Source of the DNA: Campylobacteraceae bacterium
GTDB lineage: Bacteria > Campylobacterota > Campylobacteria > Campylobacterales > Sulfurovaceae
Direction: 5' to 3'
Length of the DNA: 44,291 nt
Assembly: GCA_027056485.1 (NCBI GenBank)
Contig: JALUKQ010000185.1
Coordinates: 1-44,291, forward strand
The notes under the pieces were generated by a model. The model was not told where the DNA came from. It saw nothing but the letters and a program-made list of their open reading frames with translations, and ran no database searches. Positions within the stretch are counted from its first letter, which is position 1. Each line of letters starts with the position of its first letter. Made by a program: the position numbers and the translations under genes. Shown here one piece after another: positions 13,150-29,391 of the stretch.

Positions 13150-13163
13150 TGAATACCTATTCA
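13150..13163. promoter_or_regulatory. Putative TetR operator overlapping the hypA ribosome-binding region
   Basis: The sequence TGAATACCTATTCA is a perfect inverted repeat with the same TGAAT-N4-ATTCA design as two sites before hydA. It occupies the hypX-hypA gap and covers the likely ribosome-binding site. Being internal to an operon, it could be a roadblock site or a coincidence. Confidence 0.4.
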
Positions 13164-13171
13164 TTTTTACT

Positions 13172-14800
13172 TTAATTGTACTGTTTAAATCTTTCAGGTG
13201 TCTTAGTCGGACAGACTTTCCAAACAAACTCACGCCTTAACTTATGAAATAGACTATCCTCTTCCCAAAACTCAGGGTACATCACCTCTATCTCCCTCTC
13301 TTTACACAACTCTATCTCTTCTCTATGCTCCTCTAAATAGTCTTGCTTCTCCCATACGAAATCATCATCAAAGGTATTTTTAGCAAAACTATGTAACTTC
13401 TCATAATACTCTTGAGTTTCAAAAAGTTCATCGACCATACCAAGATCTTTTGCAGAATTAGCCGAAATAGGTAAACACTCATCTAAAAGTGTTTGGCTCA
13501 TCTCTTTCCCTACTCTTTTGGGCAATGTGTATGTATGATACTCACTTCCTGTAAGCCCTAAAGTTTTGTAGTGGGGGTTAAGCACTACACCCTCTTTTGC
13601 TACTACATAGTCACATGCTAAACCTAAAAATACCCCTCCTGCTCCTGCATTTCTAGCAAAAGAGGCGATGGTTATTATCTCATCTGCAAAGATAATGGAG
13701 CGAATTAAATCGTTCATCGCATTAATATTTGCCCAACCATCTTCACCCTGTTTTTGGCTATCTTCTAAGATATTGAGATGAATTCCATTAGAAAAGAAAT
13801 CCATACCTCCCACCAAAACCAACACCTCACACTTCTCTTTGAGATACTCAACAGCATATTTTAAACGTATGCATTGAGCTGTACTCATCGCTCCATTGTG
13901 AAAGTTAAAACAGAGATAGGCAACATTGTCTCTAAACTCCACAGAGGTTTCATAAAAGGTTTTATAGCTCTTGTCAAACAATAGAGGTAATCTATGCTCT
14001 TTTACCCCTTTAAGTCGCTCTTTTAACACATAAGTAGCAGGAAGTTTAAACTTTCCCACCTCTTTAAGATGGCTTATCCAAACAGCCCCATCTACAGTAC
14101 CCAAACAGATAGCCCCATCACGTTTAGCCAATATCTCTTTAGGCTCTCCTCGTAACCTCTCCTCTTCCCACACTCCAAAGAGATAGCACTTTAGCCCTAA
14201 AATCTCATCTAACACTCCTGGTAGGGAGTCTGATAGATAGACTTTTTCTATAATGGTTTGAGTCGTATCTTTTTGCCAATCTATCGCTCTTTTTTCTTGG
14301 GTAAAGGGTTCATGTATAGGGTTTAAAATCTGTGGAATAGCTCTGTTATTCTCTATATTTTCAAAAAGCTCATCTAAAAGTTTAAGCGAAGCAGAGACCA
14401 CCTCTTGACGATAGAGTGAAGCTTTATAGGTTTTGCGTACTTCAAAAGAGCTCTGGGCATAAATATCCCCACCATCATACTCTCCATTAGCCTTTAAAAC
14501 TACCATACCCCACCGTTTTGTTGGCTCTTGAAGTGCATACTCCAAACTGTACGCCCCTCTATCACCTCTTGGAGCAGGATGAAAGATATAGGTTGGGTAG
14601 TTTTCATAGATAGAAGCAGGTAGATAGCTCTTTAAAAAAGGGCATAAGATAAGTGTAGGATTAAAGGCTTCTATCTCTTGAAGCATCTGTTGTTCATTGA
14701 TAGCAAAGCAGACAGAGACAGTATGATTTAAATATTTTAGTTTGGTGTAGATGGCTTGAGTTTGGGAGTTGAAGGAGGTTACTAAAAGGAGGGTTTTCAT
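13172..14800 (-). CDS. hypX: HypX: CO-forming hydrogenase maturation factor
   Basis: A 542-residue two-domain protein from ATG at 14800; a TTG nine bases upstream is possible but lies only one base from the AGGA motif. Residues 1 to about 260 are a formyltransferase-like domain that in characterised HypX binds formyl-tetrahydrofolate; the conserved segment is HPAPRGDRGAYSLEYAL. Residues 270-510 are a crotonase (enoyl-CoA hydratase/isomerase) domain with FHNGAMST and ASFARNAGAGGVFLGLACD. The C-terminal block MYPEFW is typical. HypX is known to convert the formyl group to CO for the active-site iron, which allows assembly of [NiFe] hydrogenase in the presence of oxygen. It begins 2 bases after hypE ends, inside the hyp operon. 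Confidence 0.9.
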   Translation of the reverse strand: MKTLLLVTSFNSQTQAIYTKLKYLNHTVSVCFAINEQQMLQEIEAFNPTLILCPFLKSYLPASIYENYPTYIFHPAPRGDRGAYSLEYALQEPTKRWGMVVLKANGEYDGGDIYAQSSFEVRKTYKASLYRQEVVSASLKLLDELFENIENNRAIPQILNPIHEPFTQEKRAIDWQKDTTQTIIEKVYLSDSLPGVLDEILGLKCYLFGVWEEERLRGEPKEILAKRDGAICLGTVDGAVWISHLKEVGKFKLPATYVLKERLKGVKEHRLPLLFDKSYKTFYETSVEFRDNVAYLCFNFHNGAMSTAQCIRLKYAVEYLKEKCEVLVLVGGMDFFSNGIHLNILEDSQKQGEDGWANINAMNDLIRSIIFADEIITIASFARNAGAGGVFLGLACDYVVAKEGVVLNPHYKTLGLTGSEYHTYTLPKRVGKEMSQTLLDECLPISANSAKDLGMVDELFETQEYYEKLHSFAKNTFDDDFVWEKQDYLEEHREEIELCKEREIEVMYPEFWEEDSLFHKLRREFVWKVCPTKTPERFKQYN

Positions 14801-14802
14801 AT

Positions 14803-15795
14803 TTAACAAATCCTAGGCAACAACTCCCCAGTAGGTAAGTCTAAAAACCTCTTAGTCCCCCAAGAACTCTTTAAAATCACTCTACCCTCATACTCCTTAC
14901 TTACCGTTGCAATCACAGCTGAACTCTTATGAGTGCGTTGTAGTACCTCTAAAGCTCTTGCTTCATCTTCCTTTGCTACAGCTAAAAGATACGTTCCCTC
15001 ATTTGCAAGGTCAACAGCTTCAAAACCCAACATCTCACAAATACCTCGAACCTCCTCTTGCACAGGAATAGCCTCTTCTTCTACTTCAACACAGAGATTA
15101 GAGGCTTTTGCCCACTCATTGAGAACGGCACTTACTCCACCTCTTGTGGCATCACGCAAAGCGACTATGTCTATCTTGGCATCTATAAGAGCTTGGATTT
15201 GTGGGTACAAAGAGGCACAATCAGTCTCAAGATTGCTCTCTAGCTCTATCCCCTCTCGTGCAGAGAAGATGGTTGCTCCATGACTTCCAATGTCACGACT
15301 TACTAAAATGCTCATGCCCTCTTTTAGAGCCGAAGCAGAAATTCCACTCTGTTTGACCTCTCCTATGCCTGTGGTATTGATAAAGAGCTTATCAACTGCA
15401 CCTTTTGGTACAACTTTGGTATCGCCACTTACAACCACTGCTCCGTTTATCTCTAGCTCTTGTTTCATAGAGCGAACAATTTTCTCTAGCTCTCGTGTAG
15501 AGAATCCCTCTTCAATAATGACCGAACAGGTTAAGTACTTGGGTTTTGCTCCCATCATAGCAAGGTCATTACACGTACCACAAACAGCAAGTTTACCAAT
15601 ATCTCCACCATTAAAAAAGAGAGGGCTTACAGTAAAGCTATCGGTACTCATAACCAATTTTTCATCTTCTATAAGGGCTGAATCTTCACTCTTTTCTAAG
15701 ATGTCGTTTTTGAAGTGTTTGTAGAAAATCTTTGTAATAAGTTCGTTGTTTTCTTCGCCACCGTTTCCGTGGGCCAAAGTTATTGTTTTTGTCAT
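14803..15795 (-). CDS. hypE: Hydrogenase maturation protein HypE (carbamoyl dehydratase)
   Basis: A 330-residue PurM-like enzyme that receives a carbamoyl group from HypF on its C-terminal cysteine and dehydrates it to thiocyanate, the source of active-site cyanide. The essential C-terminus PRIC is intact. The ATP-binding region includes AHGNGGEENNELI near the start and the segment VMSTDSFTVSPLFFNGGDIG. It overlaps hypD by 4 bases (ATGA), so translation is coupled. Length and motif content are normal for the family. Confidence 0.96.
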   Translation of the reverse strand: MTKTITLAHGNGGEENNELITKIFYKHFKNDILEKSEDSALIEDEKLVMSTDSFTVSPLFFNGGDIGKLAVCGTCNDLAMMGAKPKYLTCSVIIEEGFSTRELEKIVRSMKQELEINGAVVVSGDTKVVPKGAVDKLFINTTGIGEVKQSGISASALKEGMSILVSRDIGSHGATIFSAREGIELESNLETDCASLYPQIQALIDAKIDIVALRDATRGGVSAVLNEWAKASNLCVEVEEEAIPVQEEVRGICEMLGFEAVDLANEGTYLLAVAKEDEARALEVLQRTHKSSAVIATVSKEYEGRVILKSSWGTKRFLDLPTGELLPRIC

Positions 15796-16937
15796 ATCAA
15801 ATTCCCATACTTATAATAAGCCGAACAAGCCCCCTCAGAACTTACCATACAAGAGCCAATAGGAGAGGTAGGCTTACACGCTGTTCCAAAGATAGTACAC
15901 TCTTTGGGCTTTGCCATACCTCTTAAAATATCGCCACAGATACAGAGTTTATGGTCTTCTATCTCGGCTATAGGCAATATATCTTTATAGACTATTTCAG
16001 CATTGTACTCTGCAAACTCATCACGTAGTTTTAAGCCACTATCGGGAACATTACCAAGACCTCGCCATCGAAAGAGACTTATCTTTTCAAAGTACTTCTC
16101 TATAAGTGCTTGGGCTGTTAAGTTCCCCTCATAATTTACCACGCGTTTGTATTGAATTTCAAGTTCGGTTCGCTCTTCTACAAACTGTTTGACTATCATG
16201 CTAATGCCTTGCATCATGTCTACAGGCTCAAACCCTGTTACCACCACAGGGCGACCATACTCTTTTGGAAACTTCTCATAAATCTTAGAACCAGCTATCA
16301 CACTTACATGGCTAGGGCCTAAAAAAGCATCAATTCGGTTATTGTAGGCATCTACATGTTCATCACGACTATCTATAAGCTCCACCATCACCTCAGGTAC
16401 GGTTACATGGTTTATGTGAAAGAGAATATTGGGTACTTTTTGTTTAATCACTTGGTCAACCAACACAGCCGTCATAGGTGTTGTAGTCTCAAACCCAATA
16501 GCAAAAAATACCACCTTTTTAGTAGGATTTTCAGAGGCAATTTTTAGACACTCCATAGGAGAGTAAACAAAACGCACATCAGCCCCTTTGGCTCGTGCAT
16601 CTTGCAGACTTCCATTACTTCCAGGAACTTTTATCATGTCGCCAAGGGTTACCAAAATAACATCCTCTTGCATCGCCAACACATAGGCATGGTCAATTCG
16701 CTCTTTTGGCATAATGCAGACAGGACACCCAGGCCCATGAATGAAGTTGATGTTATCAGGCAGAAGTTGAGGCAGTCCAAACTTCATAATGGTATGCGTA
16801 TGCCCTCCACACACCTCCATGATGTTTATAGATTTTTCTAGCTTCTTTGCATCCGTAGCAATAATCTTTGCATACGCCTTAATGGTTTCTCCATCACGAA
16901 AATCATCATATAAGTTCTTTAATTCAAGTTCAGCCAT
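15792..16937 (-). CDS. hypD: Hydrogenase maturation protein HypD
   Basis: A 381-residue iron-sulfur scaffold protein on which, with HypC, the Fe(CN)2CO unit is built. Key motifs are Cys43 in EVCGGHTH, Cys71 and Cys74 in GPGCPVC, and a set of C-terminal cysteines (CICGDILRG, GTACKP, SCMVSSEGACSAYY) that bind the [4Fe-4S] cluster. Its start overlaps the hypC stop by one base, and its end overlaps hypE by 4 bases. Length is normal. Confidence 0.96.
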   Translation of the reverse strand: MAELELKNLYDDFRDGETIKAYAKIIATDAKKLEKSINIMEVCGGHTHTIMKFGLPQLLPDNINFIHGPGCPVCIMPKERIDHAYVLAMQEDVILVTLGDMIKVPGSNGSLQDARAKGADVRFVYSPMECLKIASENPTKKVVFFAIGFETTTPMTAVLVDQVIKQKVPNILFHINHVTVPEVMVELIDSRDEHVDAYNNRIDAFLGPSHVSVIAGSKIYEKFPKEYGRPVVVTGFEPVDMMQGISMIVKQFVEERTELEIQYKRVVNYEGNLTAQALIEKYFEKISLFRWRGLGNVPDSGLKLRDEFAEYNAEIVYKDILPIAEIEDHKLCICGDILRGMAKPKECTIFGTACKPTSPIGSCMVSSEGACSAYYKYGNLI

Positions 16938-17227
16938 TATACACCTCTATTGGGACACTCATCATCCTCTAAAATGGCTTGTTTTCGTTCATCTTCATCC
17001 ATGATTTCTAAAATCTCTTTATAGGTATCAATAGAAGCCAATGCCTCTTTTTCATCTATTTTGTTCATCACAAATCCAATATGAAGCAGAACATAGTCAC
17101 CTACTTTAACATCATCATCAGCCATCATCATGAGGTTTGCATCTCTTTGGACTCCCATGGTATCTACTGTACACATGGTTTTGTCTTCTGATACTTTTAC
17201 TACTTTACTTGGGATTGATAGGCACAT
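16937..17227 (-). CDS. hypC: Hydrogenase maturation chaperone HypC
   Basis: A 96-residue small chaperone that pairs with HypD during iron-ligand assembly and then with the large-subunit precursor. The protein starts MCLSIPSKV; after removal of Met the N-terminal Cys2 is the essential iron-binding residue. The OB-fold part ends near residue 75 and the last 20 residues are an acidic tail. It begins one base after hypB ends. Confidence 0.95.
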   Translation of the reverse strand: MCLSIPSKVVKVSEDKTMCTVDTMGVQRDANLMMMADDDVKVGDYVLLHIGFVMNKIDEKEALASIDTYKEILEIMDEDERKQAILEDDECPNRGV

Positions 17228-17228
17228 A

Positions 17229-18071
17229 CTAAGTCCTCATCTTTCTTTTGAACTCAATCCAGTCTGCAACAGCTTTTACCGACTCAATATCATTTACATT
17301 TACTTCCAAAATAGCTACATTGGGTTTAATACACCGTGCATCTGCTTTCTCTTGCTCTATATCATATTTAAAATGAGGTAACAAATCAGTTTTGGTAATC
17401 AATATTAGGTCAGCTTGACGAAACATTACAGGATATTTTGCTATTTTGTCTTCACCCTCTGGCACGGAAACGAGTACAATATTTAGATGTGTTCCAACAT
17501 CGTATGATGCTGGACAAACCAAGTTGCCTACATTTTCTACAAAACAGACATCTATCTCTTCAAGTGGCATATGATGTAACCCTTTATGCACCATAAAAGC
17601 ATCTAAATGACAAGCTGTTCCTGTCTGAATCTGCTCGGCGTGAATCCCTTTTGCTCTTAGACGATTTGCATCTCGTTCGGTCTCTAAATCACCCTCAACT
17701 ACACCAAACTTGAAGTTTGCCACATCTGATAAGTACTCCAAAAGTGTTGTTTTCCCTGAACCTGGGCTAGACATAAGATTAATCCCTAACACCCCTTGCT
17801 TCTCCAAATGGCTTCGATTATGGTCTGCTTCTTGGTCATTTTTGTCTAAAATTTTCTGAATAACAGAGATGGTCTTAGCATCGTTAAGTTGAGGGTTATG
17901 ATTTAGGTGTTCATGAGCCTTTTGATGCTCATGTGAATGGTCATGGTCATGCGAATGACTATGCCCCTCCTCTGCATGGCTATGAGAGTGAAATGTTTTT
18001 CCACCATCATGACTATGCTCTCCTTCGTTTCCTTCCATACCTCTAATACTACACCCACAATCTGTACACAT
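17229..18071 (-). CDS. hypB: Nickel-binding GTPase HypB
   Basis: A 280-residue GTPase that stores and hands over nickel with HypA. The N-terminus has the high-affinity CxxCGC motif (MCTDCGC). Residues 18-60 are a His-rich stretch with repeated HSHSHDHDHSHEH, used in other organisms for nickel storage. The P-loop is SSPGSGKTTL at 101-110. The metal site between GTPase subunits is represented by TACHLDA, and NVGNLVCPASYDVG follows. It is the second gene of the operon, 9 bases after the nickel permease. Confidence 0.96.
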   Translation of the reverse strand: MCTDCGCSIRGMEGNEGEHSHDGGKTFHSHSHAEEGHSHSHDHDHSHEHQKAHEHLNHNPQLNDAKTISVIQKILDKNDQEADHNRSHLEKQGVLGINLMSSPGSGKTTLLEYLSDVANFKFGVVEGDLETERDANRLRAKGIHAEQIQTGTACHLDAFMVHKGLHHMPLEEIDVCFVENVGNLVCPASYDVGTHLNIVLVSVPEGEDKIAKYPVMFRQADLILITKTDLLPHFKYDIEQEKADARCIKPNVAILEVNVNDIESVKAVADWIEFKRKMRT

Positions 18072-18080: not shown

Positions 18081-18719
18081 CTATCCTATTAAAATATTTG
18101 TTCCAACCACAAGTGAGACAACCCCTGCTATGGTAAAGACTCGTCTTACATTTGTAAGATTACCTAAAAAGTTCTTGTTGATATAGAGTATCAACATTCC
18201 AAAACTCATAAACACAAGCATCACACCTGCTGTAAATGCTCCCACCATCGTAAAGTTTACCGTTCCACCTGCTACAACACCAAGGGTAATCAGCATTCCA
18301 CGAACACCACCTATACCCATAAGAATCCCCAAAGCAAAAGAGGAACGCTCATCTACTTTGCTATGCTCATGGCTTTTCCCAAACCAAATATGAACATGCT
18401 CTTCTGCTCCATGCATATGTTTTCGCAACTGTATACGGTCAGTCGCCACCATAAAGAGCAGATAGACCCCCATACCTATAATAACCGTAGCCGAAATCAT
18501 ATCACCATAAGCCAACAACTCATCAGAAATCACCACCGACTCCAACATTTTGGCAAAAATAAACAACATTAACCCATGCCCCAGAGCAAAGAGTGAAGTT
18601 ATAAGCATCGTTTTCTTTTGATTTTTACCTATAGAAAAGTCAGCAATAACCGTCAAATGGTCAGGACCAAAGGCATGAAGTATACCATACCAAAATATAA
18701 GTAACAGTGACAACTCCAT
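18081..18719 (-). CDS. Nickel/cobalt permease-like membrane protein
   Basis: A 212-residue protein with about six hydrophobic segments. Residues 15-21 read HAFGPDH, the H-x4-DH metal-transport signature of NicO/RcnA/NiCoT-type permeases, and a second motif ALGHGLM lies in the next segment. A cytoplasmic or periplasmic loop near residues 95-125 is His-rich (RKHMHGAEEHVHIWFGKSHEH), as in related carriers. It is the first gene of the hyp operon, so it most likely imports nickel for the hydrogenases. Export rather than import cannot be excluded by sequence alone. The start is preceded by AAGGAGAG, and a putative TetR operator overlaps the likely promoter. Confidence 0.8.
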   Translation of the reverse strand: MELSLLLIFWYGILHAFGPDHLTVIADFSIGKNQKKTMLITSLFALGHGLMLFIFAKMLESVVISDELLAYGDMISATVIIGMGVYLLFMVATDRIQLRKHMHGAEEHVHIWFGKSHEHSKVDERSSFALGILMGIGGVRGMLITLGVVAGGTVNFTMVGAFTAGVMLVFMSFGMLILYINKNFLGNLTNVRRVFTIAGVVSLVVGTNILIG

Positions 18720-18744: not shown

Positions 18745-18758
18745 TGAATGAATGTTCA
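18745..18758. promoter_or_regulatory. Putative TetR operator at the nickel permease-hyp promoter
   Basis: TGAATGAATGTTCA matches the TGAAT-N4-ATTCA design of the hydA sites with one change (G for A in the right half). It also contains a shorter perfect repeat ATGAA-TG-TTCAT. On the minus strand a TATAAT at 18758-18763 immediately precedes it, so a bound repressor would cover the transcription start. Confidence 0.55.
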
Positions 18759-18872: not shown

Positions 18873-21071
18873 TTAACTTTTTAGAGTAGCCACAATCTGC
18901 CCAAGAGCAATCCCACCATCATTAGGTGGAATTTTATTTCCAATAATCGCAGAAGGAATTCGTTCTAATACCAAACCCAAAAGTACCCTATTTTGAAATA
19001 CTCCTCCACTCAAAACCAAAGGTAAATTATAAAGCTTATAAATACTATCTATCATCTCTACAAGTGTATTAAAAAACTTAGAAACAGCCATAACTACACT
19101 CTCTTCTTCGTTAATAGCTTTTATCATAGGTAAAATATCTATCACCCCATCTTTAAACCTAAAGTCGTAAAAAGAAGAGATAGAAGCATCATAAAGCTCT
19201 TCCATTCTCATGCCACTTTCTCCCTCAAAACTCATAACCTGACAAATACCAGTAAGCGATGCCACAGCATCAAAGAGTCGCCCTACAGAAGAGCTTAAAG
19301 GAGCATTTAGAGCCTTTTGCCACATGAGGTATTGGGTTTTTAGTTCATTAGGAGTAAAAGCTTTGGTCGTGGCATTCTCTAAGTTTAAAACCTCATCTTT
19401 ATAAACATCAAAAAGCAGACTGAGTGCCACCCGTTTTGGCTCTTTTATCGCTTTTGCTCCACCAAGCAGTTTAAAGTAGTTGATGTATGCTACTCTTTTG
19501 TAACCCTCATAGTCACAAACCATAAATTCCCCACCCCAAAGGTTGCCATCGTCTCCATAGCCTGTTCCATCAAAGGCAATACCTAAAACCTTTTCTGTAA
19601 TCTTTTTTTCAGCCATCACTCCCAAAATATGAGCGTAATGGTGTTGAACCTCTCCTAGGGTCCTATTGCCATAGCACCGTTTAGCATATTTTGTAGACTC
19701 ATAATTTAGATGTTTATCATGTATCACTACTTGTGGCTCAAAGCCATAAATCCGTTTCAAGTTCTCAATATTTTCTCTAAAATACTCCACCGATTCAATC
19801 CCATCCAAATCACCAATATGAGGAGACAAAATCACCTGCTTGTTAAACCCAATAGCCACTGTATTTTTTTGATTTGCTCCTACTGCTAACACCTTTTTCT
19901 CTAAAGTAAATGGAAGTTCAATACGTGCAGGAGCATAACCCCTAGCACGACGCAATATAATAGTTTGCCCATTTACCACCATTGCTACCGAATCATCACA
20001 GCCATTGACTATCTCTCTATTATGGTCAAGTAAAAAGTCATAGACATTGCTTAGATTCTCAATGCTCTCTCTGTTAGTTGCTAGTGGTTCATCAGTTATA
20101 TTCGCCGAACTAGCTACTAAAGGGCGATTTAGTTTAGTTAAAAGGAGTAAATGCAAAGGTGTATAAGGCAAAAATAGTCCAATACGAGAAAGATTTGGAG
20201 CAATTCCCGTAGGTCGGAATGTCCTCTTCCCGACAATCACAATAGGACGCTCAATAGATGTCAATAACTTCTCTTCATCTGCATTTATTTCGCCCCATTC
20301 CCTAGCCATTTGCATATCTTTTACCATTACAGCCAAAGGTTTAGTAGGTCTCTGTTTTCTCTCTCTCAACTTTAAAACAGCCTCTTCATTAGTTGCATCA
20401 CAAACCAAATGATAACCACCAACCCCTTTAATAGCTAAAATGTTCCCTTGTTTTATAAGCTCAACAGCCTCATCAACTATTGTCGGGATGGGGACATTCC
20501 GACCTACGAGTTCCAAACTCACTCCACAATCCCAACAGCCTATGGGTTGTGCATGATATCTTCTATCAAGAGGATTTTTATACTCCTCTTCACACGCTTT
20601 GCACATCTTAAAAAACTTCATAGAGGTATTGACCCTATCATAAGGTAAATCGTAAATAATAGAGTAACGCACCCCACAATGGGTACAGGTAATAAAAGGG
20701 TAACCATAACGTCGATTTTGAGGCTCAAATAGCTCCTCTTCACAAGCTTTGCAAATGCTTATATCAGGAGGGATGTTAACCGTTTTTTCGCCACGATTAT
20801 TAGTTTGTATAATCTGAAAATTGTTAAACTTTTTAGAGGCTATTCTCTCTACATCAAGCGTATCAATAGAGGCTAAAGGAGGAAGTTCTTTTTTAATTGT
20901 ATCAATAAACAGGTCAAGTTTATCGTTAGAAGCATTAACAACTATCTCCACCCCTTGCGTTCCATTTAAAACCGTTCCATTGAGCTTAAATCTTGTCGCT
21001 AGTTGGTAGATAAAAGGACGAAAGCCTACTCCTTGGACTGTGCCTTTTATGATTATTTTATAGGTTTGCAT
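18873..21071 (-). CDS. hypF: Carbamoyltransferase HypF
   Basis: A 732-residue enzyme that turns carbamoyl phosphate and ATP into the carbamoyl group passed to HypE. All domains are intact: acylphosphatase (VQGVGFRPFIY, residues 12-22), two zinc-finger pairs (CKAC ... CTHCG and CKAC ... CWDCG, residues 107-183), a YrdC-like domain (about 195-385) and the Kae1-like domain with QHHYAH (476-481) and FDGTGYGDDGN (500-510). Two inverted copies of a REP-like palindrome are built into the frame, encoding residues about 188-199 and 279-289. The gene starts 14 bases inside the end of the TOPRIM-like gene, with only a weak ribosome-binding site, so it is probably translationally coupled to it. It ends the hyd operon. 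Confidence 0.95.
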   Translation of the reverse strand: MQTYKIIIKGTVQGVGFRPFIYQLATRFKLNGTVLNGTQGVEIVVNASNDKLDLFIDTIKKELPPLASIDTLDVERIASKKFNNFQIIQTNNRGEKTVNIPPDISICKACEEELFEPQNRRYGYPFITCTHCGVRYSIIYDLPYDRVNTSMKFFKMCKACEEEYKNPLDRRYHAQPIGCWDCGVSLELVGRNVPIPTIVDEAVELIKQGNILAIKGVGGYHLVCDATNEEAVLKLRERKQRPTKPLAVMVKDMQMAREWGEINADEEKLLTSIERPIVIVGKRTFRPTGIAPNLSRIGLFLPYTPLHLLLLTKLNRPLVASSANITDEPLATNRESIENLSNVYDFLLDHNREIVNGCDDSVAMVVNGQTIILRRARGYAPARIELPFTLEKKVLAVGANQKNTVAIGFNKQVILSPHIGDLDGIESVEYFRENIENLKRIYGFEPQVVIHDKHLNYESTKYAKRCYGNRTLGEVQHHYAHILGVMAEKKITEKVLGIAFDGTGYGDDGNLWGGEFMVCDYEGYKRVAYINYFKLLGGAKAIKEPKRVALSLLFDVYKDEVLNLENATTKAFTPNELKTQYLMWQKALNAPLSSSVGRLFDAVASLTGICQVMSFEGESGMRMEELYDASISSFYDFRFKDGVIDILPMIKAINEEESVVMAVSKFFNTLVEMIDSIYKLYNLPLVLSGGVFQNRVLLGLVLERIPSAIIGNKIPPNDGGIALGQIVATLKS
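20206..20237 (+). repeat. REP-like palindromic element inside hypF, copy 1
   Basis: A 32-base sequence (CCCGTAGGTCGGAATGTCC, then TCTTCCCGACAAT) that matches the reverse complement of 20479-20510 at 29 of 32 positions. It begins with the GTAG head typical of RAYT-associated REP sequences, followed by a hairpin built on GTCGGAA and TTCCCGAC. It is read by hypF as IVGKRTFRPTG, in the YrdC-like domain just before the APNLSRIG segment. Confidence 0.7.
20479..20510 (-). repeat. REP-like palindromic element inside hypF, copy 2 (inverted)
   Basis: The inverted partner of copy 1, with GTAG on the minus strand followed by GTCGGAATGTCCCCATCCCGAC, which folds into an 8-bp hairpin with one G-T pair. hypF reads it as LVGRNVPIPTIV, between the second zinc finger and the YrdC-like domain. 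The two copies therefore enter the coding sequence in opposite orientations and both keep the frame open. Confidence 0.7.
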
Positions 21072-21660
21072 TGTACTCTTGAAGTTTTTCTATGAAGTAT
21101 TCTAAAGAGCTATTTTTAGAAAAGTCTAACTCATAAGTTCCTCTCTTCAACTCTTTTATCATTTTTTGAACAATTTGAGGTTCACTATTGACTTTTAAAA
21201 ACTTCATTAACTCTTTTTTATGGTCTGAATGAACACTGTTTGTATTTTTATCAATAGTTAGAAACCAACTCTCTATCTCATTACAAACAACAAACAGATA
21301 AAATTGGTTTTTTAACGCTTTATCAATTTTATATTTTGGTAAATATTCTCTTTTTAACTCAACTAAACATTCATGTGTATTTTCACTTGTAAAACATTTA
21401 GTCTTTAAATCTATCATTAAAAAAACTGCTTTATATTTTTCTCGTTCCAATGCTTCTGTAATACGCTTGGTCATTCTATTCCCATTGGCAATTTCACATT
21501 TATTAGCACAACCAGACGGTTCACAATCAATAATGATATTATGATTATCTTTCAAATAATTTTTAAAATATTGATTAAAAAAATCAGCTTCACTGTTCTC
21601 TACAATGAGTAAAATCCTATTTTCTTTACTTTTAAACTTATGATTTTTCTTTCTTCTCAT
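21058..21660 (-). CDS. TOPRIM-like partner of the ABC-type ATPase (RloB/DUF4276-like)
   Basis: A 200-residue basic, Lys/Asn-rich protein. It opens ILLIVENSEADFFNQYF, which resembles the first strand and catalytic Glu (Glu21) of TOPRIM-like RloB/DUF4276/DUF4435 proteins; AVFLMIDLKT supplies an acidic residue (Asp84) at the end of the next core strand, and FVVCNEIESWFL is the conserved third block of those families. Several Cys residues (Cys46, 51, 55, 89, 98) are unusual. It is preceded by the ATPase gene with an ATGA overlap, the typical arrangement of ATPase/TOPRIM anti-phage pairs. It overlaps the hypF start by 14 bases. Nuclease activity and a defence role are inferred from family and pairing. 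Which of the named families it belongs to could not be decided. Confidence 0.6.
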   Translation of the reverse strand: MRRKKNHKFKSKENRILLIVENSEADFFNQYFKNYLKDNHNIIIDCEPSGCANKCEIANGNRMTKRITEALEREKYKAVFLMIDLKTKCFTSENTHECLVELKREYLPKYKIDKALKNQFYLFVVCNEIESWFLTIDKNTNSVHSDHKKELMKFLKVNSEPQIVQKMIKELKRGTYELDFSKNSSLEYFIEKLQEYNANL

Positions 21661-22890: not shown

Positions 22891-24813
22891 CTACAAATAC
22901 AATCCACCATAGACAGCATTCTCTTTTCCTATAGGTAAACTTTTATTCATCAAAGGTTTATATATCCCCAATGTTCTTTGTATTCTACCGTAAAGTGATT
23001 GGTTAGCAAACGTTTCACCTGTTAAAATAACCGTTCGTGTTTCTACTTTTTCAATGAGTTGAGGGACAATCTCACCAATGTAATCACCAAATGATTCATA
23101 GATACTATAACACATATAAGAGTTTTCAACATCTCCCAGTTGGTAGCTCATAATCGATGTTAAAAAGGCATAGTTATCAAAACGGTTGTCTTTTACTCGG
23201 GTATCTATTTGCAATCCACCTTTTCCTAAAAAACTCAATGCTTCAGCAGATATGCCTTCAAAACTCTCATCTTCTAAACCCAAAGTTATGGCTGTGACTT
23301 CAAAAATATCCATATTACCTTTTAGGTTATCTAAACGCTCCCAAATTTTAGGATATCTCTTTTTATAATTTCCTACTAAACGATCTGAACCCTCTCTCAG
23401 TGTTGAGATTTTCTCCCACAAATTATCTGATTCAAAAGGAATCGGAGGGACAGCATTTATAATCTCTTTACCATTGTAATACAAGAAGTTTAAGTTCCCA
23501 TCAAAGTGAACACCTATGGCTTTTTGTCCTACTTTTCCATGCTCGGCTAAAACAGACATCATCGAAGCTTTATATTGAGGGAATATTTTTTCATTTTCAT
23601 GACCAGACTCAAATGCCTCACCCTCTAAGATATGTACTCCATTACCTTTTATGCTAGTGAACTTCTCAATAGAATCAATAATCGTCTCACCATCACCATC
23701 AACAGCCAACAAATCATGGGCTAAAGAGACAATGCCATTATCATTTTTAACCACTTGAGGAAAGAGAATTCGCTCTCCTGAAACAAAAAGTTTTTCATCT
23801 TGATTAATAAATATTTTTGTATCATTTTGAGATGTTAAAGGTAAGTCAAAATCTACTAAAAAATCTGCCTCTTCACTACTGTCACACTCAACATAGGCGA
23901 TGTACTCCAAACCTGCATTTAAAATCTCTCGTGCTAAAAGCATGCTCATACCATCATCAGGAAACTTAACCAAAACAGAAGAGCCATAGAGTAATTTTAG
24001 CTCATCACTCTTGGTTGCCACACGTAACAGAGGTCGCTCTATACTTAACAAGGCATTGAACTCTTGCTGTACCAGCATAAGGTGTTCGTTAAAACCACCT
24101 GCTGATGCCATAAGTAGTGTACTGCTAGAAGCATTTTCAGCACTGACTTTAAAAAACTTTCTGTAACCATTCATAGTTTTCATAAGCACTGTTTTACCTA
24201 ATGCAATGGCTCGTCCACTTACCTCAAATAGCTTTCGGTAAGAACCTTTATCCAGTGCCATATGTTCTGTTTCCTTATCTAACATACGTAGACCAATACC
24301 ACAGTCAATACATGAAATCAATGGATAATCCACACGTAGAGCGTTACTCTTTCGCTCCTCTTCACAGGCTGCACAAGGTACTAAAAATTTCATACTAGAA
24401 TTGGCTCTGTTATAAGGATATTGGTCTAAAAATGGGTGTTGTGAACCACAATGATTACAGGAAGTAAAAGGGTAATAGTAACGTCGGCTACTTACATCAA
24501 ACATCTCTTTTTGACAAGTAGGACAAGGGGCGATATTGGTAGGAAGTTTCGTACTGTTTATCGTTGGTAAAACCAACTTCTCTTCTCTAAAAAAATGTTT
24601 ACTTTTAGCCAAAAAGAGTGAGGCAGGAAGTACCTCTTCTAAACCTTGTAAAAATGCTTCTAACTTCTCATCATTACTCATCGCTGAGATGGTAATGGTT
24701 TTACTGTCTTGAAAAACATCAAGCTCTATCTCTATCTGTTTTGCATAGGCTCTTATGAAGTCAGCAATATAAGTTTTAGTAGAGTTGAATTCCAGTTGAA
24801 AGATAAAATACAT
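22891..24813 (-). CDS. hydE: HydE: degenerate HypF-like hydrogenase accessory protein
   Basis: A 640-residue protein in the fifth position of hydABCDE, where Wolinella and Helicobacter encode HydE, which is known to be needed for hydrogenase activity. It is visibly related to HypF: zinc-finger pairs CPTC ... CNHCG and CAAC ... CIDCG (97-172) with the same spacing, LLSIERP in the YrdC-like region and IGVHFDG in the Kae1-like region. Key active-site features are missing. The N-terminus has no VQGVGFR acylphosphatase motif; the HHxxH metal site is replaced by PQYKAS (412-417); DGTGYGDDGN is reduced to DGNLNF; the C-terminal NDGGIALGQ block reads IGKENAVYGG. The frame is intact, so it is a maintained pseudoenzyme-like paralogue rather than a pseudogene. 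Confidence 0.85.
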   Translation of the reverse strand: MYFIFQLEFNSTKTYIADFIRAYAKQIEIELDVFQDSKTITISAMSNDEKLEAFLQGLEEVLPASLFLAKSKHFFREEKLVLPTINSTKLPTNIAPCPTCQKEMFDVSSRRYYYPFTSCNHCGSQHPFLDQYPYNRANSSMKFLVPCAACEEERKSNALRVDYPLISCIDCGIGLRMLDKETEHMALDKGSYRKLFEVSGRAIALGKTVLMKTMNGYRKFFKVSAENASSSTLLMASAGGFNEHLMLVQQEFNALLSIERPLLRVATKSDELKLLYGSSVLVKFPDDGMSMLLAREILNAGLEYIAYVECDSSEEADFLVDFDLPLTSQNDTKIFINQDEKLFVSGERILFPQVVKNDNGIVSLAHDLLAVDGDGETIIDSIEKFTSIKGNGVHILEGEAFESGHENEKIFPQYKASMMSVLAEHGKVGQKAIGVHFDGNLNFLYYNGKEIINAVPPIPFESDNLWEKISTLREGSDRLVGNYKKRYPKIWERLDNLKGNMDIFEVTAITLGLEDESFEGISAEALSFLGKGGLQIDTRVKDNRFDNYAFLTSIMSYQLGDVENSYMCYSIYESFGDYIGEIVPQLIEKVETRTVILTGETFANQSLYGRIQRTLGIYKPLMNKSLPIGKENAVYGGLYL

Positions 24814-24862: not shown

Positions 24863-24893
24863 ATATTTAGCTCTATAGTAAAAAACTAAATAT
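24863..24893 (-). other. Possible hairpin at the hydD-hydE junction
   Basis: An 8-bp inverted repeat ATATTTAG / CTAAATAT with a 15-base loop, whose left arm on the RNA contains the hydD stop codon. It is AT-only apart from one pair, so it would be weak. It could mark RNA processing in the 72-base hydD-hydE gap. Confidence 0.25.
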
Positions 24894-25440
24894 GGTGTAA
24901 CTGTTTTGGATTGGCAAAGAAATCAATAATCTCTTCAAAAGTCATGTTTTGACTGTTCCTCTTTAAAGTTATGCCTGAGTTTTTTAACTCTTCTAAAGTC
25001 GTATCTACCAACTTTGGCATCGCATCTAAAACCGATTTTGTTAATCCATTTTTAACTTCAATAATATCCTCAGCTACCATTGTAATGAGTTGCACTTCAC
25101 CCATCTCTTCATGAAACGAACAGATTTCTATCATCATAGTAATCTCAACTTCATTGGCTGTTTTGCGAGTAGCAGATTCATTCTTCATTACTTCATCTGC
25201 ATTTTCAGAAGCAATGGTTCCAACTGAACCCTCTTTTGAGCCTGTTCCAACCACAATAATTTTGTCATACTCTTGGTAGTAAGTCATGAGAGAGAACCCT
25301 AAGGTTCCTCCCTCAACAATGGCTAAGTTCTCGGGAATATCATAGTTCTCTTCGATATACTTTGATAAGTATGCCCCAAGACCTTCGTCATGGAACATAA
25401 TATTACCAATACCAATGAGTGCTACTTTTTTATAGTTCAA
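24886..25440 (-). CDS. hydD: HydD: hydrogenase maturation protease homologue lacking two nickel-site residues
   Basis: A 184-residue protein of the HyaD/HybD fold in the fourth position of the hyd operon. The opening LIGIGNIMFHDEGLG is normal and retains Glu19. Of the two other nickel contacts known in the family, the Asp is replaced by Gly65 (IIVVGTGS instead of xxxxDAxx) and the His by Asn96 (TANEVEI instead of AHEIGV); both substitutions are clear when aligned to the canonical protease at 11532-12050. A longer C-terminal tail ends QLHHI. It may have become a large-subunit chaperone, with proteolysis done by the other protein, or use a different site. It begins 2 bases after hydC ends. Confidence 0.85.
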   Translation of the reverse strand: MNYKKVALIGIGNIMFHDEGLGAYLSKYIEENYDIPENLAIVEGGTLGFSLMTYYQEYDKIIVVGTGSKEGSVGTIASENADEVMKNESATRKTANEVEITMMIEICSFHEEMGEVQLITMVAEDIIEVKNGLTKSVLDAMPKLVDTTLEELKNSGITLKRNSQNMTFEEIIDFFANPKQLHHI

Positions 25441-25442
25441 AC

Positions 25443-26168
25443 TTACGCTTCTTTAACAAATTTATCACCACCAATAACAATGGCAATATCTCCCTCTTTC
25501 CAGAAGATGGTTCTCCATACTTGATAATAGATATGAAAAACAACCCATGTAATGGTCAACCACATAGTATAGTGATGAACAATACGAACATCCATAATAG
25601 TTGCTTTTGCTCCACCCAAAATAGCATGACTAGCAGGTACTGTCCAGTCTGTTACAGCATGTAGCATCCACGGCCACCAAGCACCAATACTACTCTCTCC
25701 AGATGCTAACCCATGTACATAAAGCTGAAGCCCTGTTAAAAGCATCCATGCCAGTAACAAGTGAAAAATTAAAAAGTAAACACTATTAAAACTATCACTA
25801 TGCGTAGAGTCAAAATTCTTTCTTCTATTTAGTGTAATAAGATTTAAAAGCACCTCAAAAAACTCTTTAATATTTGCCCATGTAGGAATAACCTTTTTCC
25901 ATGGCTTCTCAAAACGTGAAAAGAAAAAGAGATATGCAATAATAATAGAGGTAACATCAAAGATAATAGCCACCATAAAGTGACCCCAACGGTTCCAAGC
26001 CATTACATACTTGTCTACAGCAGCATCAGCAATGAATGTCTGATAGTATGGTGCAGCGATGTAAAGACCCGTGGCAACAGCCACAATCATAGAGAAGACG
26101 TTAACCCAGTGGATGATTCTCATCGCAGGGGTCATACGTCTTACTCTTTTAAATCCTTTAGATTCCAT
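25443..26168 (-). CDS. hydC: HydC: diheme cytochrome b subunit of membrane-bound [NiFe] hydrogenase
   Basis: A 241-residue membrane protein with four main hydrophobic segments. It anchors the HydAB dimer and passes electrons from H2 to the menaquinone pool. Likely heme-ligand histidines are in RIIHWVNVF (first segment), NRWGHFMVA (second) and HHYTMW / FHIYYQVWR (last). It starts 10 bases after hydB ends and follows the standard order small subunit, large subunit, cytochrome b. Confidence 0.93.
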   Translation of the reverse strand: MESKGFKRVRRMTPAMRIIHWVNVFSMIVAVATGLYIAAPYYQTFIADAAVDKYVMAWNRWGHFMVAIIFDVTSIIIAYLFFFSRFEKPWKKVIPTWANIKEFFEVLLNLITLNRRKNFDSTHSDSFNSVYFLIFHLLLAWMLLTGLQLYVHGLASGESSIGAWWPWMLHAVTDWTVPASHAILGGAKATIMDVRIVHHYTMWLTITWVVFHIYYQVWRTIFWKEGDIAIVIGGDKFVKEA

Positions 26169-26178
26169 GACTTACTCC

Positions 26179-28053
26179 TTAAAAGGCACAAGTAGGGTCA
26201 ATTTTGTAAACTGCCAACTCTTTACCTTGAATATCAACCACATGTACAGCACAAGCGATACATGGGTCAAAACTGTGAACGGTTCGTATAATCTCTAATG
26301 GCTCTTCAGGATTAGCAACAACCGTACCAATTAAAGCTGCTTCATAAGCTCCAACTTCACCATTTGGTCCTCTAGGTCCTGCATTCCATGTAGATGGTAC
26401 AACAGCTTGGTAATTTTCCACTTTTCCATCTTTAATCTTAACCCAGTGACCTAAAGCTCCTCTTGGTGCTTCAGCAAGTCCACGACCTTTACAGTCAGCA
26501 GCAACCTCATCAAAATTAAACTCTGTCCATGTGCTTAAGTCCCCAGAAGCTGCATTTTTAGCCAGTTCATCAACCCACTCAACCATAATATCACCAATCA
26601 TCTCAGTCTCAATGGCTCTAGCAGCTGTTCTACCAACCGTAGAGAAAAGAACGGTCAAAGGAAGACCTGAACGATCTAAGAAGTTTTTAGCATATTTAGT
26701 AATACGTTCGTCACCACCAACATAACCAACCACGATTCTTGCCAATGGTCCAACTTCTACTTTTTTACCATTGTAGAGTGGTGACTTAATCCAAGAGTAC
26801 TTCTCATCTGTTTTCAAGTATGAGTAACCATCATCTTTTTTATCAAGACCTGTATATTTAGGGATAGTTGTCCCTTCATATGGATGCTCTGGAGCACCTG
26901 TACCCTCATACCATGCGTGGGTAACATCTTCTGTAATTTTTGACTCATCAAGTGGATGTACTTTTGTAATATCTCCACCAAGAACAAGCCCACTGTTAAA
27001 GAGTGATTTTGCTTTGTAGAAACCTGTATCATCAAGCTTAAAATCTCCATACGTCATGTATGAAAGGATTCCTCCACCTGTTCCACCAACATCTTTACCT
27101 AATGCACCTTTATGGTCTGAAGCATGGAAGGTAGCCGAACCATCGGTAGCTTCTTTAGCATACATGGTACCTGCCATGTAAATATCTGGAAGGTAAGCCC
27201 CTTTAATAAAGTCATTAGAGTCTTGTAAAATCTGCTTAAAGAGTGCAATTCTTGCAGGATTTTGAATGTCTTGAACACAAGTAACACCACCAACAACAAT
27301 AGATTGTGGGTGTGGGTTTTTCCCACCAAAAATAGCCTGCATTTTAGCCATGTCTCTTTGAACATCAAGTGCTTTTAGGTAGTGTGCCACCCCAATAAGG
27401 TTCTGCTCTGGTGTCAACTTATAGTTGTTGTTACCCCAGTAACCATTACCAAAAATTCCTAGTCTACCTTCACTAGCAAACTTTTTCACTCTATCTTGAA
27501 CAGCTTTAAAGTCAGCTTCTGCTGAGATGTACGGTTTATGTCCAGCTACACCTGCCCACTTTACAGCTTCTGCTACTGTTTTAGCAGGATCAGCTTTGGT
27601 CGCAGAGATAATATCAACAAAATCCAATGCATGTAGATGATAGAAGTGAACCAAGTGATCATGTACATACAATGCCCCTTGAATAAGATTTCTTACTAAA
27701 CGTGCATTTTTAGGAATGGTAATGTTAAACGCATCTTCTACAGCTTCAATAGAACGTTGGTAGTGTGTACCTGTACAGACACCACAAATTCTCATCGCCA
27801 TCAAACCACAATCTCTTGGGTCTCGCCCTTTAAGAATGGTCTCGATTCCTCTAAAAAGTGTTGACGAGGCAAAAGCATCAACAATCTTGTTATTCTCATC
27901 AATCACAGCTTCAATTCTAAGGTGACCTTCAATTCTTGTAATTGGGTCAACAATAATATGTTTCTTTCCTGATTTAGGTGCCTCTGCTGCAGGAGCAGCT
28001 ACTTCTTCTGTTGTCGTTTCAGTTGTCTCAACTGTTGTATTATTCTCAGCCAT
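26179..28053 (-). CDS. hydB: HydB: large (catalytic) subunit of membrane-bound [NiFe] hydrogenase
   Basis: A 624-residue subunit that carries the NiFe active site in the periplasm. The N-terminal ligand motif is RICGVC (Cys90, Cys93) and the C-terminal one DPCIACAVH (Cys598, Cys601, His604). Twenty residues follow His604 and would be removed by a maturation protease. The segment DPITRIEGHLRIE is standard. Residues 2-30 are an extra Thr/Glu/Ala/Pro-rich extension before IIVDPITR that most relatives lack. It begins 2 bases after hydA ends; the pair is exported together using the HydA Tat signal. Confidence 0.96.
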   Translation of the reverse strand: MAENNTTVETTETTTEEVAAPAAEAPKSGKKHIIVDPITRIEGHLRIEAVIDENNKIVDAFASSTLFRGIETILKGRDPRDCGLMAMRICGVCTGTHYQRSIEAVEDAFNITIPKNARLVRNLIQGALYVHDHLVHFYHLHALDFVDIISATKADPAKTVAEAVKWAGVAGHKPYISAEADFKAVQDRVKKFASEGRLGIFGNGYWGNNNYKLTPEQNLIGVAHYLKALDVQRDMAKMQAIFGGKNPHPQSIVVGGVTCVQDIQNPARIALFKQILQDSNDFIKGAYLPDIYMAGTMYAKEATDGSATFHASDHKGALGKDVGGTGGGILSYMTYGDFKLDDTGFYKAKSLFNSGLVLGGDITKVHPLDESKITEDVTHAWYEGTGAPEHPYEGTTIPKYTGLDKKDDGYSYLKTDEKYSWIKSPLYNGKKVEVGPLARIVVGYVGGDERITKYAKNFLDRSGLPLTVLFSTVGRTAARAIETEMIGDIMVEWVDELAKNAASGDLSTWTEFNFDEVAADCKGRGLAEAPRGALGHWVKIKDGKVENYQAVVPSTWNAGPRGPNGEVGAYEAALIGTVVANPEEPLEIIRTVHSFDPCIACAVHVVDIQGKELAVYKIDPTCAF

Positions 28054-28055
28054 TA

Positions 28056-29309
28056 TTATGCCTCCTCACTTTCACTTTTTTCATTGTCACTTTTCTTACC
28101 TGCGACGGCACTAGCAGCTGCATGAATAGCAATACCCACACCTGCTGCTGTTAACAATCCTAAACCAAACTCATCAACAGTTTTTTCAACCCCACCTGTT
28201 GGTGCCTTGATGTTAGCATTTGCCATTGGTCTCTCATAGGCATATTTGTCCCAAAAATCAGGCTCTGAACACCCAATACATCCACGTCCAACACCAATAG
28301 GCCAGTTTACCCCTTCGTTGTAACGAATAATTGAACAGTTATTAAAGGTCATTGGACCTTTACATCCTACTTTATAGAGACAGAAGTTATTTTTTGCCCC
28401 TTCATCACCCCACTCTTCAACATACTCCCCTGCATCAAAGTGTGCACGTCTTTCACAGTTATCATGAATACGGTAACCAAATGCAAATTTAGGTCGTAAG
28501 AGAGAATCAAGCTCAGGTACTGTTCCCGTAAGAACATAATGAAGAATAACACCAACCATATTAGATGGGTTCGCAGGACAAGCAGGAATATTAATAAGTG
28601 GTTTACCCTTTACAACATCCATAACACCTACAGCATCGGTAGGGTTTGGAGCAGCTGCTGGAATTCCTCCAAAGGTAGCACAAGAACCAACAGCCACAAC
28701 AGCTGCTGCATCTTTAGCCACACGTACCAAGTGGTCATGGAAAGTTTCAGCATGAGCACCAATTGTTCCGTATTGACCATTTATTCCCATTGGAATCGCA
28801 CCCTCTACAAAGAGTAAGTACTTACCTTTGAAATGCTCCATTGCCTCTTCCATCTGCTTCTCAGCTTGATGACCTGAAGCTGCTTGAAGTGTTTCATGGA
28901 ATTCAAGTGAAATAATGTCTAAGATAATTTCATCAATTTGTGGTCCATCTGAACGAAGAAGTGCTTCTGAGTTACCAGCACAATCAGAGAGTTCTATCCA
29001 AATAACAGGAACACGGTTCATAAGAACAGCAGCCTCTGCTACCAAAGGAGTAAACGAAGCAGGAAGCATTAACATTGCCGTTGTAGCTGATGCCCACTTT
29101 AAAAAATCTCTTCTCTCAAGACCTTGCTCTTCAATGCTCTCTGTAAAGTCATGTCTATTTTTTAGTGGAGCGAGTTGTTTTAATTCATCCAATCTTGCTC
29201 TACATCCTGCATAAAGTGATTCATAATATGCATCACCTCTATTCGTATCTACTTTAGCACTTTCAGCAGTAAAGAGTTTCTTTACCGAGTCATGTTTATC
29301 AATACTCAT
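28056..29309 (-). CDS. hydA: HydA: small subunit of membrane-bound [NiFe] hydrogenase
   Basis: A 417-residue electron-transfer subunit with a Tat motif ERRDFLKW at residues 65-72, placed after an unusually long 64-residue leader, and a C-terminal hydrophobic anchor near 375-400. Cluster ligands for the distal and medial sites are present: RIHDNC, FCLYKVGC, NNCS and GCIGCSE. At the proximal site Cys110 is followed by Asn113 (DCAGNSEAL), where this group normally has CxGC; the other two proximal cysteines (GSCATFGG, IPACP) remain. The codon AAC is unambiguous. It is the first gene of the operon, with GAAGGAG before its ATG and two putative operators upstream. Confidence 0.95.
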   Translation of the reverse strand: MSIDKHDSVKKLFTAESAKVDTNRGDAYYESLYAGCRARLDELKQLAPLKNRHDFTESIEEQGLERRDFLKWASATTAMLMLPASFTPLVAEAAVLMNRVPVIWIELSDCAGNSEALLRSDGPQIDEIILDIISLEFHETLQAASGHQAEKQMEEAMEHFKGKYLLFVEGAIPMGINGQYGTIGAHAETFHDHLVRVAKDAAAVVAVGSCATFGGIPAAAPNPTDAVGVMDVVKGKPLINIPACPANPSNMVGVILHYVLTGTVPELDSLLRPKFAFGYRIHDNCERRAHFDAGEYVEEWGDEGAKNNFCLYKVGCKGPMTFNNCSIIRYNEGVNWPIGVGRGCIGCSEPDFWDKYAYERPMANANIKAPTGGVEKTVDEFGLGLLTAAGVGIAIHAAASAVAGKKSDNEKSESEEA

Positions 29310-29330
29310 CTGCTTCTCCTTCTATTTTTT

Positions 29331-29344
29331 TGAATAACTATTCA
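29331..29344. promoter_or_regulatory. Putative TetR operator 1 upstream of hydA
   Basis: TGAATAACTATTCA is a perfect 14-bp inverted repeat (TGAAT-N4-ATTCA) between the predicted -10 box and the hydA ribosome-binding site, 22-35 bases before the start codon. Confidence 0.6.
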
Positions 29345-29367
29345 TTAGTCTAAATAAAAGGAACTTA

Positions 29368-29373
29368 AATTCT
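29368..29373 (-). promoter_or_regulatory. Predicted -10 box of the hydABCDE operon
   Basis: TAGAAT on the minus strand, 59-64 bases before the hydA ATG and lying between the two putative operators. A weak TTCAAT-like sequence is about 17 bases upstream. It is an inferred promoter. Confidence 0.35.
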
Positions 29374-29391
29374 AATGAATGACTATTCATT
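29374..29391. promoter_or_regulatory. Putative TetR operator 2 upstream of hydA
   Basis: AATGAAT-GACT-ATTCATT is a perfect 18-bp inverted repeat containing the same TGAAT-N4-ATTCA core. It directly abuts the predicted -10 box on its upstream side, so a bound repressor would block RNA polymerase. Confidence 0.65.

Follow-up and report, generated by a model that had tools for sequence, protein, structure and literature searches.

Gene layout and palindrome copies at the hydrogenase locus

We analyzed a stretch of 44,291 bases (contig JALUKQ010000185.1; here, the window) from a draft Campylobacteraceae genome of 2.48 Mb in 187 contigs, which is 87% complete. The named relatives of its hydrogenase genes belong to Sulfurovum, Sulfurimonas, and other Campylobacterota. 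A row of genes on the minus strand begins with tetR, which encodes a TetR-family regulator, followed by senS and senL, the labels given here to the genes of a small cytosolic hydrogenase that, by description and gene order, is the HupSL of the Sulfurospirillum literature. Next come hydS and hydL for the uptake hydrogenase, a cytochrome b gene, a protease gene, a HypF-like gene, an AAA/DUF4276 insert, and hypF; the row then continues with a putative transporter, hypB, hypC, hypD, hypE, a HoxX-like gene, and hypA. A palindrome, TGAATNNNNATTCA, recurs at this locus, and comparison with related genomes supports its reading as a predicted operator that overlaps the promoters of its target genes and is conserved together with this TetR.

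Perfect copies of TGAATNNNNATTCA numbered three in the window compared to 0.17 expected (about 0.2 by the initial annotation), and 0 of 100 shuffled sequences reached three. Matches with one mismatch were at chance level (6 found, 4.9 expected). We then scored the window with a site model of 20 positions, built from 115 training sites at other loci; these took in near relatives but none of the window's own sites. The model placed the four sites of the initial annotation, which are the perfect copies starting at 29376, 29331, and 13150 and the one-mismatch copy starting at 18745, at the top of its ranking (18.8 to 25.1 bits, Table 1). The next-best site in the window scored 9.3 bits, and the best scores of 60 random sequences had a mean of 11.7 and a maximum of 17.7 bits. 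The four-site observation in the window is real: these scores, together with the shuffles of the window and of the hydS upstream regions described below, rule out chance palindromes.

In the window's own genome, we found six perfect copies, of which three lie within these 44 kb, compared to eight matches for the reversed-pattern control; the palindrome is therefore not enriched genome-wide, only clustered here. Each of the remaining three copies lies within a mechanically listed open reading frame (ORF). After this search for copies at unrelated genes, proposed with the initial annotation, we dropped the reading of a genome-wide pleiotropic site.

Two of the perfect copies flank the -10-like box of hydS (named hydA in the initial annotation), as had been described: the 29331 copy lies 2 bp past TAGACT (29352 to 29347), with the 29376 copy a short way upstream of TTTAAG. 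At the transporter-hypBCDE operon, the one-mismatch operator and TATAAT share one base. The 13150 copy is located in a 24-bp gap within the hoxX-hypA gene row, 2 bp from the hypA start codon, and so marks no evident promoter.

Operator conservation and selectivity across genomes

We sought TetR orthologs in 150 genomes of the family to which the window's genome belongs and took the DNA around the stronger matches. This yielded 62 TetR pieces (the window among them, and two derived from named plasmids), 23 of them without hydS on the piece. A perfect site was present within 300 bp upstream of hydS in 37 of the 39 TetR-linked pieces, and 17 pieces had two or more. When the 39 upstream regions were shuffled, 0.04 of 39 contained a site, and the reversed pattern was found in none. 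Two control sets of 20 hydS upstream regions each were hand-picked among the matches listed, with lengths of 124 to 486 bases rather than exactly 300. Of the 20 additional regions drawn from TetR-bearing genomes, most of them on other contigs (although one in G093 shares its contig with a partial tetR), 16 have a perfect site; of the 20 drawn from TetR-less genomes, 3 do (one site each in G009 and G028, two in G050). Among close hydS orthologs (at least 70% identity) in TetR-less genomes, one of seven had a perfect site. In nine TetR-less genomes rechecked by profile search, the TetR matches were weak, none exceeding 51 bits. The 80 named loci, which overlap the other sets, gave 68 first hydS genes; 60 of these have a perfect site, and 66 have one when a single mismatch is allowed.

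The sites are selective for particular genes. Across 102 pieces, perfect sites within 200 bp upstream were found for 61 of 84 hydS genes, 10 of 13 transporter genes (window included; 12 of 13 with up to one mismatch), 2 of 19 hypA genes, 1 of 101 tetR genes, and 1 of 65 hypF genes, and for none of the senS (96), senL (92), hydL (80), hypB (24), hypC (20), hypD (21), or hypE (17) genes. The single hypF site appears to stem from a split match in L037, where it lies inside the coding sequence, and the sole tetR site belongs to a paralog in L099. Because the locus sets overlap (L229 to L308 repeat many contigs of L042 to L100, and L038 and L196 represent a single plasmid), the family-piece count of 39 and the 102-piece count are not independent.

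These counts support a predicted TetR regulon that covers the uptake hydrogenase, through the hydS promoter, and the maturation operon, through the transporter-hypBCDE promoter. The initial annotation had assigned the palindrome to the promoters of the hydrogenase operons and had proposed joint repression of structural and maturation genes by TetR. That proposal holds up at hydS and at the transporter-hyp operon, where orthologous promoters conserve the site, and loses hypA as a general target. We dropped hypA as a conserved target since only two of its 19 upstream regions (window included) have a perfect site, one being the window's own, and four have a site with up to one mismatch. General autoregulation of tetR was dropped as well; 12 of 101 tetR upstream regions have a site with up to one mismatch, so autoregulation is possible in some lineages.

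We chose 11 TetR-bearing genomes and located their 54 perfect sites. Of these, 36 fall no more than 45 kb from tetR, where 2.7 would be expected, and the extended RnnY center fits 29 of the 36 near sites compared to 7 of the 18 distant ones. The hydrogenase cluster moves as a block, plasmids included. Where the hydS type has been replaced (hydS 50 to 53% identical in L059, L088, and L091), the sites stay with tetR.

Sites also occur at other genes. Some genomes carry a second, downstream uptake hydrogenase with its own perfect operator or operators (L209 at 11330, L210 at 11029, L213 at 12816, and L215 at 10925 and 11002); this second hydS is 52% identical, and the first hydS in the same genomes has shifted or one-mismatch palindromes. 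In two genomes from different families (L322 at 2062, L329 at 2053), the 14-base palindrome lies upstream of a gene for a Cys/Met-metabolism pyridoxal phosphate (PLP) enzyme, 169 and 42 bases away, and this gene is a possible further regulon member.

Promoter structure and operator decay

We derived the operator consensus AnTGAATRNNYATTCAnT from 118 unique sites, each with no more than one mismatch. In 56 hydS upstream regions aligned on the proximal perfect site, TTTAAG is followed by a -10-like box and then by the operator. We take TTTAAGTnTT to be the upstream element of Campylobacter sigma-70 promoters. The commonest start of TATAAT-like hexamers is 8 bp ahead of the operator (17 of 56 rows), which means that the operator overlies the expected transcription start. 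Eighteen cases had two perfect operators within 200 bp; the two are 45 bp apart in 14 of these and 44 bp apart in 2, and the upstream operator of the pair sits just before TTTAAG. As judged from these alignments, an operator at the -10/start region has the geometry of a repressor site, which argues for repression.

We also read the upstream regions of the seven close hydS orthologs in TetR-less genomes. Two of these (G134 and G139) have kept TTTAAG and the -10-like box, with only one half-site intact at the place of the operator, and four (G004, G007, G011, and G030) have no recognizable half-operator. Two intact operators remain in G050, in which no TetR was found.

Table 1. Coordinates of genes and sequence features of the hydrogenase locus in the window
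Feature	Position	Strand	Remarks
tetR, TetR-family regulator	31638..32231	-	Pfam TetR_N 1.9e-15; heads tetR-senS-senL row
senS, cytosolic small hydrogenase subunit (HupS-like)	30747..31634	-	Pfam NiFe_hyd_SSU_C + Oxidored_q6; no signal peptide
senL, large hydrogenase subunit (HupL/HoxC-like)	29465..30757	-	Pfam NiFeSe_Hases; stop directly after last metal-binding CxxC
Predicted operator O1, perfect TGAATNNNNATTCA	29376..29389	.	25.1 bits; upstream of hydS promoter core
TTTAAG upstream promoter element, hydS	29364..29369	-	Same position in aligned hydS upstream regions
-10-like TAGACT of hydS	29347..29352	-	2 bp before operator O2
Predicted operator O2, perfect TGAATNNNNATTCA	29331..29344	.	19.3 bits; overlies expected hydS transcription start
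hydS, small subunit of membrane-bound uptake [NiFe] hydrogenase	28056..29309	-	TAT segment; main predicted regulated gene
hydL, uptake hydrogenase large subunit	26179..28053	-	
Cytochrome b subunit	25443..26168	-	Ni_hydr_CYTB
Hydrogenase maturation protease	24886..25440	-	HycI
HypF-like accessory protein	22891..24813	-	zf-HYPF; matches 3' of hydL in many related loci
hypF	18873..21071	-	
Predicted operator, one mismatch	18745..18758	.	19.4 bits; one-base overlap with TATAAT of transporter-hypBCDE operon
Putative nickel/metal transporter	18081..18719	-	First gene of hyp operon; HxxxxDH motif by eye
hypB, hypC, hypD, hypE	14803..18071	-	
HoxX/HypX-like formyltransferase/enoyl-hydratase protein	13172..14809	-	Formyl_trans_N/C + ECH_1
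Perfect palindrome TGAATNNNNATTCA, 2 bp before hypA	13150..13163	.	18.8 bits; weakly conserved, role uncertain
hypA	12806..13147	-	HypA match

Among the other products of the row, the putative transporter had no match in Pfam or NCBIfam, and the protein encoded upstream of hypA presumably belongs to the HoxX/HypX family. The HypF-like protein has 640 amino acids, with a zinc finger and a weak carbamoyltransferase match, and recurs beside a true hypF in many clusters. Between its gene and hypF, at 21058 to 22850, lies an insert that encodes a DUF4276-like protein (Pfam 6e-6, below the family cutoff) and an AAA_15 ATPase and resembles the candidate defense pair HEC-01 (PADLOC 9.9e-7 and 3.2e-41).

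TetR protein and its association with senSL

The product of tetR has an N-terminal TetR helix-turn-helix (Table 1), and its AlphaFold2 model shows an all-helical TetR fold (predicted local distance difference test score 92.8). The closest Protein Data Bank (PDB) structures are TetR-family proteins, FadR-type regulators among them (3whb, 5gp9, and 5gpa; 16 to 22% identity). Two cysteines, Cys122 and Cys127, are present in 137 of 140 TetR sequences; the three without them are paralogs on pieces that have no senSL (L097 to L099). Two TetRs without senSL nearby (L074 and L311) keep both cysteines. The paralog, also found at L062 14783, is 44 to 47% identical (44 to 45% for L097 to L099), and in L099 it adjoins hypA, with two palindromes in between. 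A role of TetR in fatty acid regulation, considered on account of fabH and plsX upstream, was dropped, as this neighborhood was found in 1 of 96 pieces, the window only.

The initial annotation had placed tetR at the head of the neighboring hydrogenase transcript; tetR is indeed first in its row, and what had been missed is that the small cytosolic pair behind it is sensor-like and nearly inseparable from TetR. We searched 298 Campylobacterota genomes with cutoffs of E <= 1e-60 for senL and E <= 1e-30 for TetR and detected senL in 68, TetR in 69, and both in 67. The single genome with senL only has its locus cut by a contig end, and the two with TetR only are G003 (a partial copy with a stop) and G287. 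In G287, a 457-residue gene, flavoprotein-like by eye, occupies the senSL position, and tetR, operator, and hydS are kept. All 67 TetR-senL pairs are adjacent, with gaps of 831 to 1,653 bases. Outside the family, the order tetR-senS-senL was found in 39 of 40 pieces, the remaining one being cut. Of the 80 named loci, 73 reach far enough for this comparison (recounted without L292, a wrongly chosen match), and 71 of them have tetR no more than 1.5 kb from senL; the two exceptions, L232 and L230, have inserts between senS and senL, and L230 is also at a contig edge.

Such inserts between senS and senL were seen in two genomes (L043, reverse strand, approximately 3070 to 6140; L232/L230, approximately 1160 to 3070). 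By eye, they contain DNA cytosine methyltransferase-like genes with unknown companions. Hydrogenase clusters may be landing sites for defense genes.

SenS has no signal peptide and begins directly with its iron-sulfur (FeS) domain, whereas HydS has a twin-arginine translocation (TAT) segment. All ten Cys/His FeS ligands of SenS are invariant in 27 of 27 sequences, and at one position of its proximal cluster at least 90% have Asn, like the Huc-type and HydS sequences compared and in contrast to the Cys of HoxB. The four Cys of the nickel-iron (NiFe) active site of SenL are likewise invariant in 27 of 27. SenL is 25 to 31% identical to HoxC, and in 77 of 79 loci its last residues are CxxCxxx, the same end as in HoxC, whereas Huc-type and HydL proteins run on; the two exceptions are an earlier stop in the frame that was read (L288) and the wrongly chosen match L292. 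Sensor hydrogenases have a narrow gas channel with Ile62 and Phe110 (HoxC numbering). The Ile62 position is Ile in 27 of 27 SenL sequences, as in the Huc-type sequence.

Next to senL, the regulator gene is tetR rather than that of a histidine kinase or NtrC-type regulator in 67 of the 68 genomes with senL. No kinase match was obtained for the 30 window proteins scanned (57 ORFs listed), the search for kinases being limited to the window. In a contig scan, the titles of the best 80 of 237 matches named no Aquificota genome.

Proposed regulation and alternatives

We propose that a TetR dimer binds AnTGAATRNNYATTCAnT and, by covering the -10/start region, would repress the uptake-hydrogenase and transporter-hypBCDE operons; operators paired 45 bp apart would bracket the hydS promoter in the window and in many relatives. 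Without hydrogen (H2), TetR would occupy the hydS and hyp promoters. When SenSL meets H2, a change of its redox state or shape would release TetR from the operators, directly or via a small intermediate, and the uptake hydrogenase and nickel-cofactor assembly proteins would be made only when H2 is present. Given that the tetR-senSL operon is without a perfect operator in nearly all relatives, TetR and SenSL could both be present before H2 arrives.

On balance, we lean toward this full model, in which TetR represses the hyd and transporter-hyp operons and SenSL that has met H2 relieves repression. Its parts differ in footing: comparison across genomes shows the link between TetR and operator, the operator position, and the lock between TetR and SenSL, and from these we infer physical binding, repression, the H2 signal, and contact between TetR and SenSL. 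Our confidence falls a little short of even for the narrower idea of kinase-free H2 sensing in many Campylobacterota families, in which a [NiFe] hydrogenase would control a one-component TetR directly, either by contact or by reduction of Cys122/Cys127. TetR and the sensor-type hydrogenase appear to form a conserved module, which would be a new form of H2-responsive regulation if the step from SenSL to TetR holds.

Several observations weigh against the model. Perfect sites precede hydS in three genomes without this TetR (G050, G009, and G028), and three TetR-less genomes searched contained two, six, and zero sites, so a genome's site count is no indicator of TetR. Half-decay of the operator was seen in two relatives only, and four of the six close TetR-less hydS orthologs other than that of G050 have no recognizable half-operator. 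Outside the family (40 pieces, three without a hydS following senL), perfect sites precede the first hydS in 20 of 37 pieces, several families show one-mismatch or shifted palindromes, and in family f4, three of seven pieces have neither a perfect nor a variant site. The counts throughout are not phylogenetically independent. The TetR of G287 and the second TetR of G122 (L074) keep sites and both cysteines without senSL nearby; neither feature thus depends on senSL. The Phe110 position is not conserved in SenL (Thr in 21 sequences, Val in 3, Ile in 2, Ser in 1). Finally, a 2017 study of Sulfurospirillum multivorans reports that hydB is constitutive, with no significant increase with H2, and that hupL is almost untranscribed (PMC5357620). 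These data speak against an H2 switch in that organism under the conditions of the study, but would fit a repressor that is not made: if the tetR-hupSL row is not transcribed, hyd would likewise escape repression.

The strongest alternative, which we consider unlikely, accepts the TetR regulon and assigns SenSL a metabolic role, e.g., ferredoxin reduction for the reductive tricarboxylic acid (rTCA) cycle, with TetR responding to an acyl-CoA or a redox metabolite. Two papers offer such a role, since "group 2D" enzymes of Campylobacterota have been hypothesized to supply rTCA reductant (PMC5401914), an idea also raised for HupSL (PMC5357620). G287, where TetR and operator persist without adjacent senSL, is consistent with a separate TetR signal, and the fatty-acyl-CoA-binding FadR among the closest folds of the TetR model would suit an acyl-CoA; the fabH/plsX neighborhood, being confined to the window, lends such a signal no wider backing. 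Three features also speak against a purely metabolic enzyme, namely the near-perfect lock to TetR over 298 genomes, the end of SenL without a C-terminal extension as in HoxC, and a tetR-senSL operon that almost never has a perfect operator, as would be expected of a sensor.

It is improbable that another regulator binds the palindrome and that TetR co-occurs with it through inheritance of the whole cluster. En bloc movement of the cluster, also on plasmids, the three TetR-less genomes with sites before hydS, and the TetR paralog of L097 to L099, which in L099 lies beside two sites, would allow it, but the sites stay with tetR after the loss of senSL (G287) and after the replacement of hydS, and they have decayed to half-sites in two TetR-less relatives. 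Least probable of all is activation by TetR from the upstream site, although one report describes a TetR-family activator of autotrophic-growth genes, including hydrogenases, in an acetogen (PMC6873888), because the recurrent site lies at or after the -10 box over the expected start and many genomes have no perfect upstream site.

The genes under predicted TetR control enable H2-based growth in many bacteria of vents and sediments. If the proposal is correct, kinase-free control by a hydrogenase and TetR would be a new mode of H2 perception, one that travels with the cluster, plasmids included. With its operator defined, its regulator named, and a sensor-like partner locked to that regulator, the system lends itself to simple tests in cultured vent and sediment bacteria. 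These elements would also allow one to predict which hydrogenases are co-controlled, and they may provide a compact H2-responsive promoter.

Comparison with known systems

Among TetR-family repressors, the FadR-type proteins of Bacillus resemble this TetR in fold (3whb, 5gp9, and 5gpa) and in the operator half-site TGAAT, which we take to be like the FadR box. They differ in that identity is 16 to 22%, and the system described here has a 14-bp core with another spacing and hydrogenase rather than fatty acid targets.

A related arrangement has been described in S. multivorans, where a gene for a TetR-like repressor lies directly upstream of hupSL beside hydABC, a gene order that matches ours by description. 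That 2017 study proposes that TetR represses hupSL (PMC5357620), whereas the operators predicted here stand in front of hydS and the hyp operon but hardly ever in front of tetR-senSL. The initial annotation had supposed that a TetR switch would be new; the adjacency of TetR and hupSL was thus already in print, and the openly licensed literature searched yielded no published operator or regulon of this TetR-hydrogenase kind.

Cytosolic hydrogenases of this sort have been named variously. A 2009 report on Nautilia profundicola called the pair H2-sensing group 2 and also discussed a ferredoxin role (PMC2628731), a 2017 survey filed the Campylobacterota enzymes in group 2D and put forward the rTCA hypothesis (PMC5401914), and a 2021 paper labelled the Sulfurimonas enzymes 2b and left their role open (PMC7952632). 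By the filing of the 2017 survey, SenSL would resemble group 2d (the Aquifex hydrogenase III type); unlike the reductant supply proposed there (PMC5401914), the lock to TetR points to regulation.

In several respects, SenSL resembles the H2 sensors HoxBC and HupUV: it is cytosolic without a signal peptide, its large subunit ends after the last CxxC, its NiFe and FeS ligands are intact, and its genes are placed beside those for an uptake hydrogenase and hyp genes. The known sensors work with a histidine kinase and an NtrC-type activator, as in HoxBC-HoxJ-HoxA of Cupriavidus and HupUV-HupT-HupR of Rhodobacter. SenSL differs from them in that SenL is only 25 to 31% identical to HoxC and does not conserve Phe110, and in that its partner is, by gene order, a TetR encoded in the same row.

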